Source: a virus. Taken from it: 32,191 bases of DNA. The stretch spans positions 1 to 32,191 of the IMG/VR virus record IMGVR_UViG_3300006086_000021. One strand, given 5' to 3'. Positions 8,554 through 31,943 of this stretch are shown piece by piece (within the stretch, counting starts at the first letter, position 1; the number at the start of each line of letters is the position of its first letter). The notes below the pieces were generated by a model. The model was not told the DNA's origin. It ran no database searches and saw only the letters and a list, made by a program, of their open reading frames with translations. The translations under genes and the position numbers were made by a program.

Positions 8554-8631
8554 TGGCGCTGCAGCTGTGGCTCGAACACAGATTTCCGCCCTGAGAGGGG
8601 TGGTGTCCTATTCCAATTAGACGAACGCAGC
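8554..8631 (-). tRNA. tRNA-Glu-like (CTC) with an 8-nt anticodon loop
   Basis: The minus strand folds as a cloverleaf. The acceptor is GCTGCGT with CTGCAGC (one G-U and one mismatch). T8 and C9 are followed by the D-arm GTCT-AATTGGAAT-AGGAC. The T-arm CTGTG-TTCGAGC-CACAG is perfect, and discriminator G with encoded CCA completes the 3' end. The GGACACC run between the D and anticodon arms is typical of bacterial tRNA-Glu. The anticodon arm CCACC-CCTCTCAG-GGCGG has one A-C mismatch and an 8-nt loop. Deleting one C would give the normal loop CTCTCAG, anticodon CTC. It may be a decayed tRNA or one that reads with a shifted frame. Confidence 0.65.
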
Positions 8632-22457: not shown

Positions 22458-24878
22458 TTAGGCAAAGAAGTACTTGCTCGAATTTACGAGTTCAATGTCC
22501 AGGTTGCCCATGCACGGAAGTTCCGGCCAATCCGTTCCGGTAGGTGCCCCCTCTTGAGCCGTCGAGAGGAGGTCGCCGAGCACGTCGTGGTCTTGATACA
22601 TCTGCACGAACTCCGCACGTAGACAGACGGCGAGCGCCTGCGTGTCGCTGGCGTGTGTGCCGTAGCTATCGTGGATCATCGCAAAGTGTGTAATCCCCAC
22701 CGTCGTTGCCGCGTTGATGGTGAGAACCATCGCCGCCGCGTCCAGCGAGTGGACGAAGTTCGGGCTAGACGCCGATGTCTGGCGCCTTACGTCGATCTTG
22801 TCCGTCTGCTTGTACTCAACGAACTTGCGTATCGTGCCGTTGAAGCGCGTCTCAACGCGACCTTCCTTATCGGTGTGATACGCCTGATAGACCTTGAAGC
22901 CGCTCGGAGTGGTCCACAGCAACGGTGCGTTTACCCGCGCCGCGCTCCTCGCCACGCCTTGAATGAAGTCCATGGCGCGTCGACCCGCCACGACGACCTC
23001 GCCCATCGCCTGCCAGACAAGCTGGGCGAGGAACGTGCACGCTTCGCGGGATTGCTCGCCGAACGGGTTCTCGCCCATCTCCTCGAAGGCGTCGATCACG
23101 TAGGCTTGGCACGACCGGAAGGTTCCGCCGTAGGGCAGCACCATGACTGGCCGCTTCGTGATCTTCCGAGAGACGCCCATGCGGAGCCATTCGGTAGCCA
23201 TCCAGCCCTTGTCTTGGTCTTTGGGGTGGTCGACTAGCAGACGCGTCACCATGTCAGCGACACGCTGATAGATGTCCTGCGGCGTCTCGCCGGGGACCAG
23301 ATTGACCGCCTCGCCAGTGGTCTGGTCTCGCAGCATGGCCGCGAAGTGTTGCAGCCCGTTGCACGTCCCGTCGAGAGCGACGGGCATATGCGAGACGTGC
23401 TCGTAACCGTTGGCGATGTAGCCGCCCCACTCGAAGCAGAACGCGAGGAACGACCACGGCTTGTCTGCCGACACCCACATACGATTGGTGAGAGGGTCGC
23501 GGGCCACGTCGCACATTTCTGTCGAGTGCGCGTAGGACCACGCCTCGCGGTCGGCCAAAGACACCTTGTCGTTGCCATACAGGTTAGCGCCGTGGATCGC
23601 GAACCACGTCGGGCCTTGGTCGTTTCCGAGCGGCTTGCCGACCGCGAACTCCAAGAGAGACCGAACGGTGTCGTCGCCTTGCGGGTTCAACGCGTCGCAG
23701 CGCGAGTAGACGCGGCCGCGGAAGTCGCAGACCTGCGGAAAGTAGAACTCCGGAAAGCCTTTGAAGTCGGTCGCCGCACGTAGGCGCCGGTCGAAGGTGT
23801 AGCGCTTCGAGGCGTTCTGCACGTTCTTCGCGTGAACGTCTCGCATCGCTCGCTTCCACTTCGCCCGCTCCGGGTTGTCGCTTGGCAGGCTCGCGACGGT
23901 GCCGGGCATCTTGATCACTGGCTCGTCGCCGCGCTCCGGCATTTCGCCGATGACGAGGCCGTGGTCCCACGCATGTTGCATGACCTCCAACACGCGATTG
24001 TTGATCCGCCACGACGTGTCTTGGACCGCATTGAGGGCGGCGTAGACCTTGGTCATGTCGGCCGTCTGTAGGCGCTCGATCTGCCCCGGACGATTACCCG
24101 TGATGATTGGCACCGGAAGCGTGGCCGACGTGTAGTAGCCGCCGCCCATGAGTTCTACCCACGGCGCGGGCGGGATGACTGAGGGCAGGTTAAGAGGGCG
24201 CGTCAGCATCGACGCCGCGTTAAACCGCTCAAACCAGACATCCGCGCCTTCGGCGAAGTAGAGGCGGTACGGACTTTTCGTGCCTTCGTCGGCGCGGATG
24301 ATTACAGCCACGTCGAGGGTTGCAACCGTCAACTCGACGAGAGCATTGCCCACGTGGGTCCGCTGGTTCTTCGTCCAGCCGGGTATTTCGAGAGCGAACT
24401 TCGAGGCCGCCTTGTGCAGCGAGTTCGCCACGCGTGGTCCAGCGGTGCCACGGGCGGCACAACCGTTGACGATGGCGTGATAGAGGCCGGGGTTCAGGTC
24501 CTCGAATTTCGCGGCGCGTAGCTCGCCGTCGAGGCGCTCGCCTGCCCACTTTGCGGCCATCTGCAAAGTCGCGTTGCTGGCACACGCGCTGATGGTCGCT
24601 CGCACCGCGAGGAACGCGGCTAGCTCCGGGTCGACGCCTTCGAGGAGCAGCGCAGCGCTGTTCTTCCGGCCGGGTCCCCCGCCTAGCGCGTAGGTTGTCC
24701 ATTCGGTGATTGCCTGCGCCACCGGCAAGATGGCCCGCCGCGCCATGGCAATGCCCGCGGGCGTCGAGACCGCGTCGTGCCGTGACAGATGCTTGTTGAT
24801 GTTGGTCAGGGCGCGTTGGCGGCCCGCTTCGGCCATGCGTGCTTCAATTCGAGCCTGCGTTTGTGTCGGTCGTCCCAT
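22458..24878 (-). CDS. Single-subunit DNA-dependent RNA polymerase (T7 gp1-like)
   Basis: The start is ATG at 24878 with AAGGTG upstream (MGRPTQTQARIEARM). Two earlier in-frame ATGs (24929, 24920) lack ribosome sites and would run through the repeat-palindrome element, so the product is taken as 806 aa (T7 has 883). Catalytic residues are Asp503 (ALDGTCNGLQHF), Lys575 (TKRPVMVLPYGG), Tyr583 and Asp737 (MIHDSYGTH), matching T7 Asp537, Lys631, Tyr639 and Asp812. It ends KYFFA, like the T7 FAFA foot. The specificity-loop region before NFVHSLD is short and diverged, so the promoter should differ from that of T7. Transcribed by host polymerase after the int terminator, it switches on middle and late genes. 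Confidence 0.95.
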   Translation of the reverse strand: MGRPTQTQARIEARMAEAGRQRALTNINKHLSRHDAVSTPAGIAMARRAILPVAQAITEWTTYALGGGPGRKNSAALLLEGVDPELAAFLAVRATISACASNATLQMAAKWAGERLDGELRAAKFEDLNPGLYHAIVNGCAARGTAGPRVANSLHKAASKFALEIPGWTKNQRTHVGNALVELTVATLDVAVIIRADEGTKSPYRLYFAEGADVWFERFNAASMLTRPLNLPSVIPPAPWVELMGGGYYTSATLPVPIITGNRPGQIERLQTADMTKVYAALNAVQDTSWRINNRVLEVMQHAWDHGLVIGEMPERGDEPVIKMPGTVASLPSDNPERAKWKRAMRDVHAKNVQNASKRYTFDRRLRAATDFKGFPEFYFPQVCDFRGRVYSRCDALNPQGDDTVRSLLEFAVGKPLGNDQGPTWFAIHGANLYGNDKVSLADREAWSYAHSTEMCDVARDPLTNRMWVSADKPWSFLAFCFEWGGYIANGYEHVSHMPVALDGTCNGLQHFAAMLRDQTTGEAVNLVPGETPQDIYQRVADMVTRLLVDHPKDQDKGWMATEWLRMGVSRKITKRPVMVLPYGGTFRSCQAYVIDAFEEMGENPFGEQSREACTFLAQLVWQAMGEVVVAGRRAMDFIQGVARSAARVNAPLLWTTPSGFKVYQAYHTDKEGRVETRFNGTIRKFVEYKQTDKIDVRRQTSASSPNFVHSLDAAAMVLTINAATTVGITHFAMIHDSYGTHASDTQALAVCLRAEFVQMYQDHDVLGDLLSTAQEGAPTGTDWPELPCMGNLDIELVNSSKYFFA

Positions 24879-24910
24879 TTTGCCACACCTTTTTGCCACA
24901 AGTCTTGTGG
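24878..24910. promoter_or_regulatory. Direct-repeat pair plus palindrome at the RNA polymerase start
   Basis: The plus strand has TTTTGCCACA twice, 13 bp apart (24879-24888 and 24892-24901), running into the perfect inverted repeat CCACAAG-T-CTTGTGG at 24896-24910. The same repeat unit occurs as a second pair at 25154-25175. The element overlaps the RNA polymerase translation start region, so a bound protein could repress lytic development; equally it could be integrase arm sites. Confidence 0.5.
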
Positions 24911-24954
24911 TGGTTGTCATTGTCTGCATTATGGCAGAGATTGGTCGTGAATAA

Positions 24955-24976
24955 AAGCCCCGTTTTACAGGGGCTT
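24955..24976 (-). terminator. Terminator between integrase and RNA polymerase
   Basis: On the minus strand a 7-bp stem, AAGCCCC with GGGGCTT, and an 8-base loop are followed by TTAT. It lies just past the integrase stop (24988). It should insulate RNA polymerase from lysogeny-block transcription, though the T-run is short. Confidence 0.65.
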
Positions 24977-24987
24977 AGAGGTGTTTT

Positions 24988-26505
24988 TCAGGGTTCGTTA
25001 CCATCTGGAATAGGTGGTATTTCGTCTTTTAAGGATTGTTGTGCGGTCCCGTCATCAGACCCGATTTGCGCAATGATTGCAGGCATTTGGCACAACGGGA
25101 CGATACCGTATCCGAGGTCCGCTTGAGGCAATTTCAGGCCGTTTGCCCCATCATTTGCCACACGGTTTGCCACACCCCAATCGTTGTCGCCGAAGGCAAA
25201 GTCGAAGGCTTGCTTCTGCCGGTTTTCGGTGACGGTGAGGAGTTGCAGATTGTCGATATCATTGTTCATCGGGTTGCCGTCCTTGTGGTCGACCTCATAG
25301 CCTTCGGGGATAGCCCCATTGGCCTGAGACCACACGTAACGGGGCCAGCTTTCCGTTCGCCTTGACTTCGACACGAGGTCGTAGTGTACGATCCGCATCC
25401 GGCCGTCTGCGCAGAGATACGGGCCGTAGACTTTTGGGGGCGTGTCGAAACTGGTAAACGAAGCCGATTTAAAATCGGCCGCCTTCGGGCTTACGGGTTC
25501 AACTCCCGTCGCCCCCACTTCGAGCGACGCAGCCATAGCGCCATACGTTTTCGGTGCCAAGTGCGCGTATCGCATCGTCATCGTCAGCGACTTGTGCCCC
25601 ATCCAGCGTTGCACGTGGTATAGGTCGTGGCCCGCCTGGACCAACCTAGACGCGCAGGTGTGTCGGAACGTGTGCACGACCGTGTCCGCACCCATCCAGG
25701 GTAGCGTTCCGCGTAGTTTTTCCCACAACACGCGGAGCGTGTTCCGAGACAGGCCGCTGAAAGGGCCGGTCCAGGCGGAGTGCGACTTCTGCACCTGCGC
25801 CGCGCGACGTGCCTGCGTGGTCATCGGCACGGCCCGCGTCTCCCCGTTCTTGGTGTCGCAGAACGTCACGGTCGACCCGCTACAGTCCGCCCATGCGAGA
25901 CCTTCCGCCTCACCGAGGCGAGCGCCGGTGTCTACTAGAAACGCGAACAAACGGGCGTAGTCGAAGTATCCGAGGCGTTGCGTTTCCCCAAGGATGGCCG
26001 CGACCTCGTCTTGCGAGTAGAAGCGGATGCGCGACATCCCTTCGCGTTGCCACTTGAGTTCGGGCAGCGACGCGATTTGCCCTTGCCTTTTCGCTTCCTT
26101 TGCCATGACCGAGACGGCGGCGAGACGGCGGTTAACGGTGCCGCTGGCGAGGCCCGCCCGTTCCAGAGACAACACGTAGTCTCGAAGCTGCGCTTCGGCG
26201 AAAGCGTCGGATACCGCGACCTTGTTACCGACGAAACGGACATAGAGCCGACCGTTGCGAGATAGCGTCTCCTCGGACTTGAGGCCGCGCCAATGCTTCT
26301 CGGTGACAAGGTCGCAGAGTGCCCCGAGCGTCGTGCCCTGCATCTTGACCGACGCCACCGGCATGGGTTTGCCGAACTTCGCCGCTAGGCGTAGCTCGGC
26401 CTCGAAGGCTTCCGCCTCGGTCGCGGTCGTAAAGGTGTGGCGGTGACGCTTGCCGTCGATCATTGCCGCCATGAGGTAGCCGCTACCCCGCTTAGATACG
26501 CTCAT
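24988..26505 (-). CDS. int: Tyrosine integrase fused in frame to an HNH nuclease domain through the attP/tRNA-Leu sequence
   Basis: The protein is 505 aa in three parts. Residues 1-329 are a complete tyrosine recombinase: Arg196 (TGARLGEAEGL), His278/Arg281/His282 (HTFRHTCAS), His304 (MGHKSL) and the nucleophile Tyr313 (MRYAHL). Residues 330-357 (VGATGVEPVSP...) are the antisense translation of a whole tRNA-Leu gene, the likely attP core. Residues 358-430 are an HNH domain (YGPYLCADGRM, EGYEVDHKDGNP, NNDIDNLQLLT). The tail to 505 reads through the second repeat pair. The ATG at 26505 overlaps the MarR gene's stop as ATGA. Integration in the tRNA would cut the reading frame after the active site. 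Confidence 0.93.
   Translation of the reverse strand: MSVSKRGSGYLMAAMIDGKRHRHTFTTATEAEAFEAELRLAAKFGKPMPVASVKMQGTTLGALCDLVTEKHWRGLKSEETLSRNGRLYVRFVGNKVAVSDAFAEAQLRDYVLSLERAGLASGTVNRRLAAVSVMAKEAKRQGQIASLPELKWQREGMSRIRFYSQDEVAAILGETQRLGYFDYARLFAFLVDTGARLGEAEGLAWADCSGSTVTFCDTKNGETRAVPMTTQARRAAQVQKSHSAWTGPFSGLSRNTLRVLWEKLRGTLPWMGADTVVHTFRHTCASRLVQAGHDLYHVQRWMGHKSLTMTMRYAHLAPKTYGAMAASLEVGATGVEPVSPKAADFKSASFTSFDTPPKVYGPYLCADGRMRIVHYDLVSKSRRTESWPRYVWSQANGAIPEGYEVDHKDGNPMNNDIDNLQLLTVTENRQKQAFDFAFGDNDWGVANRVANDGANGLKLPQADLGYGIVPLCQMPAIIAQIGSDDGTAQQSLKDEIPPIPDGNEP
25154..25175. repeat. Second TTTGCCACAC direct-repeat pair, inside the integrase C-terminal tail
   Basis: TTTGCCACAC occurs twice with 12-bp spacing (25154-25163, 25166-25175), matching the pair at the RNA polymerase start. 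It encodes the odd GVANRVANDG tail of the fused integrase. Short direct repeats about 0.3 kb from an attP core fit arm-type integrase or excisionase sites. Confidence 0.5.
25436..25517 (+). tRNA. Complete tRNA-Leu(UAA), probable attP core, antisense to integrase
   Basis: All arms fold on the plus strand: acceptor GGGGGCG with CGCCCCC, D-stem TCG/CGA with GG in the loop, anticodon arm GCCGA-TTTAAAA-TCGGC (anticodon TAA), long class II variable arm GCC-TTCG-GGC, T-arm ACGGG-TTCAACT-CCCGT and discriminator A. CCA is not encoded (CTT follows). It lies wholly inside the integrase frame on the other strand. Most attP sites carry only the 3' part of a tRNA; here the full gene is kept, so it may either be functional or reflect a long attB identity. 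Integration at the host tRNA-Leu(UAA) gene is inferred. Confidence 0.9.
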
Positions 26506-26846
26506 GCCTTGCCTTTCATGACGCGAACAAAGTCGCCGAATAGGCGCTCGCCCGCTGGTGTTAGTTTCAGGATGCGCTGACGCCGGTCGAGAGGGTTTTC
26601 ACGACGGTCTATCAGTCCGAGACCGTCCTTTTTACGATTGCCCAGCGAGGTGAGAATAGACGCGGTGCGACTTGCGGCGCCGTTGGAACAGCCAAGGGCT
26701 TTTAGCAAGTCTTTTTGTTCAATCCCCGGCTCGGCCGCTACGATGCCGAGGGCTTGGACCTGTAAAGCGGTTATGCCCGTGTGTTCGTCGCGGAGGCGCT
26801 GCATCATATAGACAAGCCCTTCTGCGAGGCGCTGCGTAGGTGTCAT
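26502..26846 (-). CDS. MarR-like winged-helix regulator
   Basis: The protein is 114 aa. ALQVQALGIVAAEPGIEQKD, LLKALGCSNGAASRTASILT and then a wing with RRENPLDRRQRILKLTPAGE form the MarR-family DNA-binding domain (helix-turn-helix, then the DxRxRxLxLTxxG wing). The dimer helices are short. MarR proteins bind palindromes; a perfect palindrome lies at 24896-24910 by the RNA polymerase start. Its stop overlaps the integrase ATG (ATGA), so the two are made together and may control lysogeny. Confidence 0.82.
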   Translation of the reverse strand: MTPTQRLAEGLVYMMQRLRDEHTGITALQVQALGIVAAEPGIEQKDLLKALGCSNGAASRTASILTSLGNRKKDGLGLIDRRENPLDRRQRILKLTPAGERLFGDFVRVMKGKA

Positions 26847-31510: not shown

Positions 31511-31639
31511 CACCGATGGAAAGAGTGGTTAATCAGTGGTTATCGCCGGTCGTCGTCGCGCCGCCCTTGCGCCGCCTGTTGACCGCAGTGAGACCGCAGT
31601 GAGACCGCAGTGTGCACCGATGGGAACAGTGGTTAATCA
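31511..31639 (+). repeat. Two plus-strand copies of the CGATGGGNACAGTGGTTAA motif
   Basis: The copies at 31511-31535 and 31615-31639 agree at 23 of 25 bases. Two more copies lie on the minus strand at 31944-31962 and 32029-32047, so the set is arranged head-on. The motif was not seen elsewhere in the window. It could be an operator, an origin element or a promoter part. Confidence 0.6.
31581..31613 (+). repeat. Tandem 11-bp repeat, three units
   Basis: GACCGCAGTGA occurs three times in a row (last unit ends T), just before the second 19-bp motif. The 11-bp period is about one DNA turn, so three protein subunits could bind on one face. Confidence 0.75.
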
Positions 31640-31943
31640 CCTCTCTCCCTCTCCATCTACAGGCGGCATAAGGCTAGCGAGGTGCAAAAACACTGGGGCG
31701 CTGGCATGAGTGTGTGAGCGAATGTCAAACCGCTCGATTGCCGCCTGCATACCGCAGTCAACGCGATGCTTTATCTCGTTGTGTGACCAGTGATTGCTGC
31801 GGTCATCGCGCGGTGTGTGGCAATGCACGAGGCAAACGACGGATGGTGCCCGGTCGCAAAGAGCGGCCGAAGGGTGGTCGACGGGGGGATAGCGCGGCGG
31901 TTGAAAATCGATACCAGGAAATGCGGGTGCACCAAATTGGTCG

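Follow-up and report, generated by a model that had tools for sequence, protein, structure and literature searches.

How is a phage integrase to be understood whose reading frame continues, without a stop, through a tRNA gene and into a nuclease, and what would integration do to it? The frame in question occupies positions 26505-24988 on the minus strand of a 32,191-base virus record, the whole of which was analysed and is called the window here, and it comprises 505 codons. A preliminary description of this DNA had placed it correctly at 24988-26505. Its first 328 residues (25522-26505, minus strand) are a tyrosine integrase: the Phage_integrase domain PF00589 is matched over residues 164-318 (2.1e-20), PHROG_1 is matched at 1e-47, and R196, K219, H278, R281, H304 and Y313 form the complete catalytic set. 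Domain and R, K, H, R, H, Y residues together place the protein among the tyrosine recombinases/integrases and agree with the earlier reading of a complete recombinase with Tyr313. The integrase is modelled with confidence by AlphaFold, with a C-terminal helix predicted at residues 318-330; past it, residues 338-353 are of low confidence, a hairpin appears at 358-376 and nothing further on is confident (pLDDT <50 over residues 376-497), the model of the HNH part having been built without an alignment and being uninformative there.

The genome around the frame is that of a T7-like phage (Autographiviridae), since the window encodes a single-subunit RNA polymerase and a T7-type set of SSB, endonuclease I, primase-helicase, DNA polymerase, exonuclease, portal, capsid (major head protein) and tail genes. 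A MarR-type regulator (26502-26846, minus strand; PF12802, 2.1e-7; PHROG_9665) overlaps the integrase start by 4 bases, and the RNA polymerase (22458-24929, minus strand; PHROG_414, 3.3e-246) lies on the other side, its start probably being ATG 24878, as homology begins near residue 22. The MarR-int-RNAP order is common to LUZ100, Roseobacter phage CRP-113, RHEph21 and HTVC019P, and a tRNA-Leu is found near int in LUZ100, Pasto and others. A hairpin resembling an intrinsic terminator, 3' of the frame at 24958-24972 (minus strand), is a candidate end of a MarR-int-HNH operon; three such hairpins were found against 2.0 expected by chance, so the support it lends is weak. In LUZ100 a terminator lies directly downstream of int (PMC10134795).

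Three other observations concern the window at large. Near one contig end, ACCGCAGT occurs four times at 31582-31758, three of the copies 11 nt apart, and at 8554-8631 ARAGORN reports a doubtful tRNA with a two-base anticodon. The annotated proteins include no terminase, and at 32 kb the contig falls short of the roughly 40 kb of related phages; it is therefore probably incomplete, truncated at the end represented by positions 1-506.

Residues 330-357 of the frame, 28 in number, come from antisense reading of an entire tRNA-Leu gene, as had been noticed before; it is a tRNA-Leu(UAA) (25436-25518, plus strand), called by ARAGORN and, at 56.7 bits, by Rfam (RF00005). Open reading through the tRNA is unremarkable by itself, since 23 of the 51 antisense frames of 17 tRNA-Leu genes (45%) are open; given that such an insertion exists, an HNH in frame beyond the tRNA would arise by chance with a frequency of ~0.15 (23/51 x 1/3). 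The CCA is not encoded and no sigma-70-like promoter was found near the gene, so the phage tRNA may not be expressed. Exact matches of its 30-nt 3' segment and 21-nt D-arm segment were found in none of 84,980 genomes.

An HNH endonuclease domain, residues 358-442 (25180-25434, minus strand), begins 1 nt from the tRNA. It matches HNH_3 (PF13392) over residues 389-429 at 3.8e-16, and its score of 58.9 bits against a cut-off of 24.8 makes it an HNH_3 endonuclease. Homology to free-standing HNHs begins at K358, beside the 5' end of the tRNA, and the start codon of the HNH is therefore missing; the homology ends near residue 442, where a cluster of repeats that we call arm cluster A begins, so the C-terminal zinc ribbon is gone as well. 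The nearest free-standing relatives begin M-KxYGPY (the M is present in L161 and L162) and mostly possess a C-terminal zinc ribbon (L161, L162, L207, L208 and L095), and in the window neither an own start codon nor a zinc ribbon or other DNA-binding part is present. The HNH that had been called intact is thus intact as a Pfam domain but not as a protein, since the start Met and zinc ribbon of its homologues are missing. The attP region supplies the remainder of the frame, a C-terminal extension of residues 443-505 and the stop (24988-25179, minus strand). The integrase has a GC3 of 0.78 and the HNH core one of 0.75; the linker stands at 0.62 and the tail (residues 441-505) at 0.48, a tail composition that resembles non-coding DNA and suggests that the HNH may be a remnant.

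Where does such an HNH come from? All five full-length relatives that align over its N-terminus have a tRNA-Leu gene at a distance of 250 nt or less, as against none of 76 other HNHs, only one of which is near any tRNA. Of the 71 members of the wider subfamily, which is defined in this analysis (L241-L311), 44 have a full tRNA no more than 300 nt away, and the number rises to 52 when orphan 3' halves are counted as well; some L241-L320 loci are the same places as L161-L240 loci, so the two counts are not independent. HNH and tRNA do not always have the same orientation to each other, which speaks for an association formed repeatedly and not for a single cassette passed on by descent. By homology and by its position beside the tRNA-Leu(UAA), the HNH of the window very probably derives from this tRNA-associated subfamily, and we infer that its origin lies in homing; phages are known to have free-standing homing endonucleases beside tRNA genes, SegB being one (PMC2988022, PMC13096335).

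Several loci of the subfamily are of interest in their own right. In L241-L311, several orphan tRNA 3' halves lie directly 3' of the HNH. On a 176-kb phage contig (L162:2340-2940, a locus also numbered L241) an insert consisting of a full tRNA-Leu(UAA) and an HNH interrupts a tRNA-Leu at the anticodon loop and looks like a homing cassette with a replacement tRNA. At L208:2441-4062, an integrase, a tRNA-Leu(UAA) and an HNH of the same subfamily are adjacent and unfused.

The recurrence of the HNH-tRNA-Leu association in unrelated phages also bears on the integrity of the contig. An assembly chimera or sequencing error could account for the missing int stop or for a union of unrelated sequences, the frame being found on a single virus contig with no near relative in the collections searched: the whole protein, the HNH part and the window DNA have no direct relatives among viral contigs or phage records. 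But the MarR-int-attP-RNAP order runs on both sides of the frame as it does in relatives, and with the recurring association this makes an artefact very unlikely.

The preliminary description took the tRNA itself, at 25436-25517, for attP; integration would then separate the recombinase from a start-less HNH, and the fusion would exist only in the free phage. tRNA genes are common attachment sites, and the whole tRNA gene directly abuts int. T7-like cyanophages, moreover, use tRNA-Leu for attachment (PMC8776855). The arrangement of repeats around the frame points elsewhere. Five arm-type sites (TGTGGCAAA/TGGGGCAAA) bracket 24901-25141, downstream of the HNH. Arm cluster A (25142-25174, minus strand) consists of TGTGGCAAA, TGTGGCAAA and TGGGGCAAA in 12-nt steps and is read in the frame as VANRVANDGAN, residues 445-455; arm cluster B (24879-24900, minus strand) consists of a pair of TGTGGCAAA with a 13-nt step, immediately ahead of the likely RNAP ATG 24878. 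The 9-mer TTTGCCACA, which is TGTGGCAAA read in the int direction (TGGGGCAAA is one variant copy), occurs in four exact copies of one orientation, all within 24879-25174 (296 nt), where 0.10 copies are expected in the 32-kb window. A chance origin is ruled out by this expectation and by shuffling, none of 100 shuffles having any 9-mer at four copies in 320 nt. Analogous repeat clusters are found at the int end and before the RNAP in several relatives; at one locus (L146) pairs of the same 9-mer flank a tRNA-derived core beside an integrase, and cluster A encodes the Int end there as VAKNVAN. Position, spacing and recurrence all suggest that the repeats are arm-type sites of the integrase. Pairs of TTTGCCACA were also seen in 34 viral contigs (L127-L160), nearly all in 12-nt steps and in seven of them within 600 nt of a match to a T7-type integrase model, which raises the possibility that integrases widely use this motif as an arm site.

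Midway between the two clusters, at 25033-25027, lies CTTAAAA, the anticodon loop of tRNA-Leu(UAA). Fourteen T7-like loci, the window among them, have a full tRNA-Leu close to int, and in each of these the loop heptamer of the matching isoacceptor (UAA in 8, UAG in 5, CAA in 1) is found in the int-RNAP gap outside the full tRNA. The product of the per-locus chances is ~1e-12, a value that presumes independence although some of the loci are related, and for the window alone the chance of the heptamer in the gap is 8%. The flanks of the heptamer in the window, AATC and GACG, are unlike tRNA stem, and no tRNA half was found in its int-RNAP gap; two relatives (L077 and L080) have a long tRNA-Leu 5' half in the gap and no full tRNA-Leu there. 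By the isoacceptor rule and the junctions of the integrated relatives described below, we propose ATCCTTAAAAGACG (25023-25036, minus strand) as the attP core. The phage tRNA, a tRNA-Leu(UAA), is of the isotype to which this core would belong, the core being equal to the UAA anticodon loop. That attP lies between clusters A and B is highly probable. The tRNA at 25436-25518 was rejected as attP core on arm geometry and the isoacceptor rule, for both clusters lie beyond the HNH and flank another site, and the heptamer lies outside the full tRNA at every one of the 14 loci.

Integrated relatives show the same layout from the other side. In IMG/VR records from isolate genomes, int is at one end and the RNAP at the opposite end, as expected if attP lies between them. 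On the int side of one such record (G001), arm-like repeats are followed by a full tRNA-Leu(UAA), GGGACTTAAAATCCC and the 3' half of a tRNA-Leu, terminated by CCA; CTTAAAA thus comes after the full tRNA-Leu and before the host half, a junction that adjoins the full tRNA rather than lying inside it and that counts further against an attP in the tRNA. On the RNAP side of two others (G004 and G005), a host tRNA-Leu 5' half runs up to CTTAAAA and is followed by phage DNA. A full tRNA-Leu(UAA) precedes int in G004; in G005, where the broken 5' half is present, the portions examined yielded no spare tRNA. The host tRNA-Leu is therefore cut at the anticodon loop in 3/3 integrated relatives, with an intact spare tRNA-Leu(UAA) in 2/3. 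Judged by its junctions, this layout is that of tRNA-dependent lysogeny, described in 2024 for actinobacteriophages (PMC10865867): recombination at a short core disrupts a host tRNA that the cell needs, and one encoded by the phage stands in for it. An attP within the tRNA of the window is, on all these counts, very unlikely.

The position of the core decides what integration would do to the frame. Recombination at 25027-25033 keeps residues 1-493 on one side, the proposed core being codons 491-493, past Y313 and the HNH, so the exchange would be confined to the stop and the ~12 codons before it, and Int and HNH would not be split; if the host half were that of G001, to take one example, the frame would end at 497 residues. 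The earlier proposals that integration separates the recombinase from the HNH, and that the fusion is a built-in sensor of integration state, find no support here, as the two parts would remain joined after integration. The observation of a recombinase-HNH frame running through a tRNA antisense, on the other hand, was right, and the fusion is borne out as a predicted protein, whereas attP was most likely assigned wrongly to the tRNA, and the splitting model most likely does not hold.

Is the fusion made? With no stop between int and HNH and no clear internal ribosome-binding site, a 505-aa protein is the simplest product, and we give its production as one predicted polypeptide an even chance. 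Separate production of the HNH from an internal start appears unlikely: GTG 330, ATG 370 and GTG 378 are all in frame, and ATG 370 would spare the whole Pfam HNH_3 domain, but none is preceded by a clear ribosome-binding site and ATG 370 would cut the conserved N-terminal KxYGPY hairpin. A stronger competitor, to which we give somewhat less than an even chance, is that a damaged HNH gene happens to lie in frame with int and that the extension is tolerated, with no HNH function. The 45% of open tRNA antisense frames, the absent start codon and zinc ribbon and the tail GC3 of 0.48 all fit such an accident, as does the failure to find a second fusion among the other integrase-bearing T7-like loci (L001 of that set, the window itself, left aside), 50,697 phage records and 72,556 plasmid records. 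A search of the phage and plasmid records for other recombinase-tRNA antisense-HNH proteins, which the preliminary description had suggested, thus leaves the fusion known from this contig only. Against accidental read-through, the HNH core residues and a core GC3 of 0.75 are kept, and about 175 codons past the Int end are without a stop. A functional fusion and a captured remnant are about equally likely.

The plasmid and chromid records were also considered as possible carriers of T7-like prophages and were rejected as such, as the annotated integrase matches (two records are without annotation) adjoin porin and transposase genes instead. In L098 (S. meliloti pSymB) and L099 (a P. flavum plasmid), both of Rhizobiaceae, site-specific integrase genes lie beside or between porin genes, possibly a porin switching system.

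We propose that the window contains the integration module of a temperate T7-like phage, most likely one of tRNA-dependent lysogeny. Int would recombine CTTAAAA at 25033-25027, between arm clusters A and B, with the anticodon loop of the host tRNA-Leu(UAA), which would thereby be broken, and the intact phage tRNA-Leu(UAA) at 25436-25518, which we consider quite likely to be its replacement, would take over. A homing-type HNH would have entered the space that separates this tRNA from arm cluster A and been captured there, losing its start codon and zinc ribbon, and int, having no stop before the HNH, would then encode the predicted 505-aa Int-linker-HNH. In the prophage, Int and HNH would remain joined on the int side (attL), with the last ~12 codons changed. 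Taken whole, a tRNA-dependent lysogeny module with a captured HNH is the best explanation of the locus and a likely one.

If this is correct, T7-like phages of several Gram-negative hosts target the tRNA-Leu anticodon loop by tRNA-dependent lysogeny, which would explain the tRNA-Leu genes beside T7-like integrases. The nuclease subfamily, repeatedly found on phage tRNA genes, at least one of them split with a full tRNA present, would be the homing counterpart. The Int-HNH fusion is also a naturally occurring case in which to ask whether a recombinase can direct a nuclease. The earlier suggestion that the HNH could cut an empty attB gains some indirect support from the location of its subfamily on tRNA genes, often those for tRNA-Leu(UAA), any such cleavage being a prediction. 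A more far-reaching reading, which we consider unlikely, is that the HNH, without a zinc ribbon of its own, is aimed by Int and would nick or cut the tRNA-Leu(UAA) anticodon-loop site, in an empty attB or a rival attP, so that homing of a tRNA-plus-nuclease cassette would be coupled to tRNA-dependent lysogeny.

The module is probably a new setting of tRNA-dependent lysogeny, one in which a tRNA-associated HNH has been captured into the integrase frame. The study of that lysogeny treats actinobacteriophages and does not mention Autographiviridae (PMC10865867), and a literature search of partial coverage found no report of it in T7-like phages. Like Fionnbharth and Gaia (PMC10865867), the latter of which uses tRNA-Leu-CAA and an 8-bp core, the phage of the window has a tyrosine integrase, arm-type sites and a phage tRNA of the same isotype, and the short core in a host tRNA that is not rebuilt is proposed here as well. 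Unlike them, it is T7-like, its core is proposed at the tRNA-Leu anticodon loop, its tRNA is antisense to int within the int frame, and an HNH is fused to Int. LUZ100 (PMC10134795) shares the MarR-int-RNAP order, a tRNA-Leu by int and CTTAAAA between repeat clusters in the int-RNAP gap, but its tRNA is upstream of int and it has no HNH; its authors regarded the tRNA-Leu as a possible remnant of, or recruited by, imprecise excision. As in the Mx8 integrase (PMC6070905), the attP core lies within the integrase frame, so that integration alters the 3' end, although the core proposed here sits close to the end of a C-terminal extension, past an HNH domain. The suicidal SSV-type archaeal integrases (PMC8371274) likewise have the recombination target inside the integrase gene and are split into two inactive parts, whereas the position of the proposed core past Y313 and the HNH sets the present integrase outside that type and would keep catalytic domain and HNH together. 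Finally, SegB, a homing endonuclease of T-even phages located by tRNA genes (PMC2988022, PMC13096335), is also a phage nuclease tied to phage tRNA genes, but it is a free-standing, unfused GIY-YIG enzyme, and the nuclease described here is an HNH fused to an integrase.
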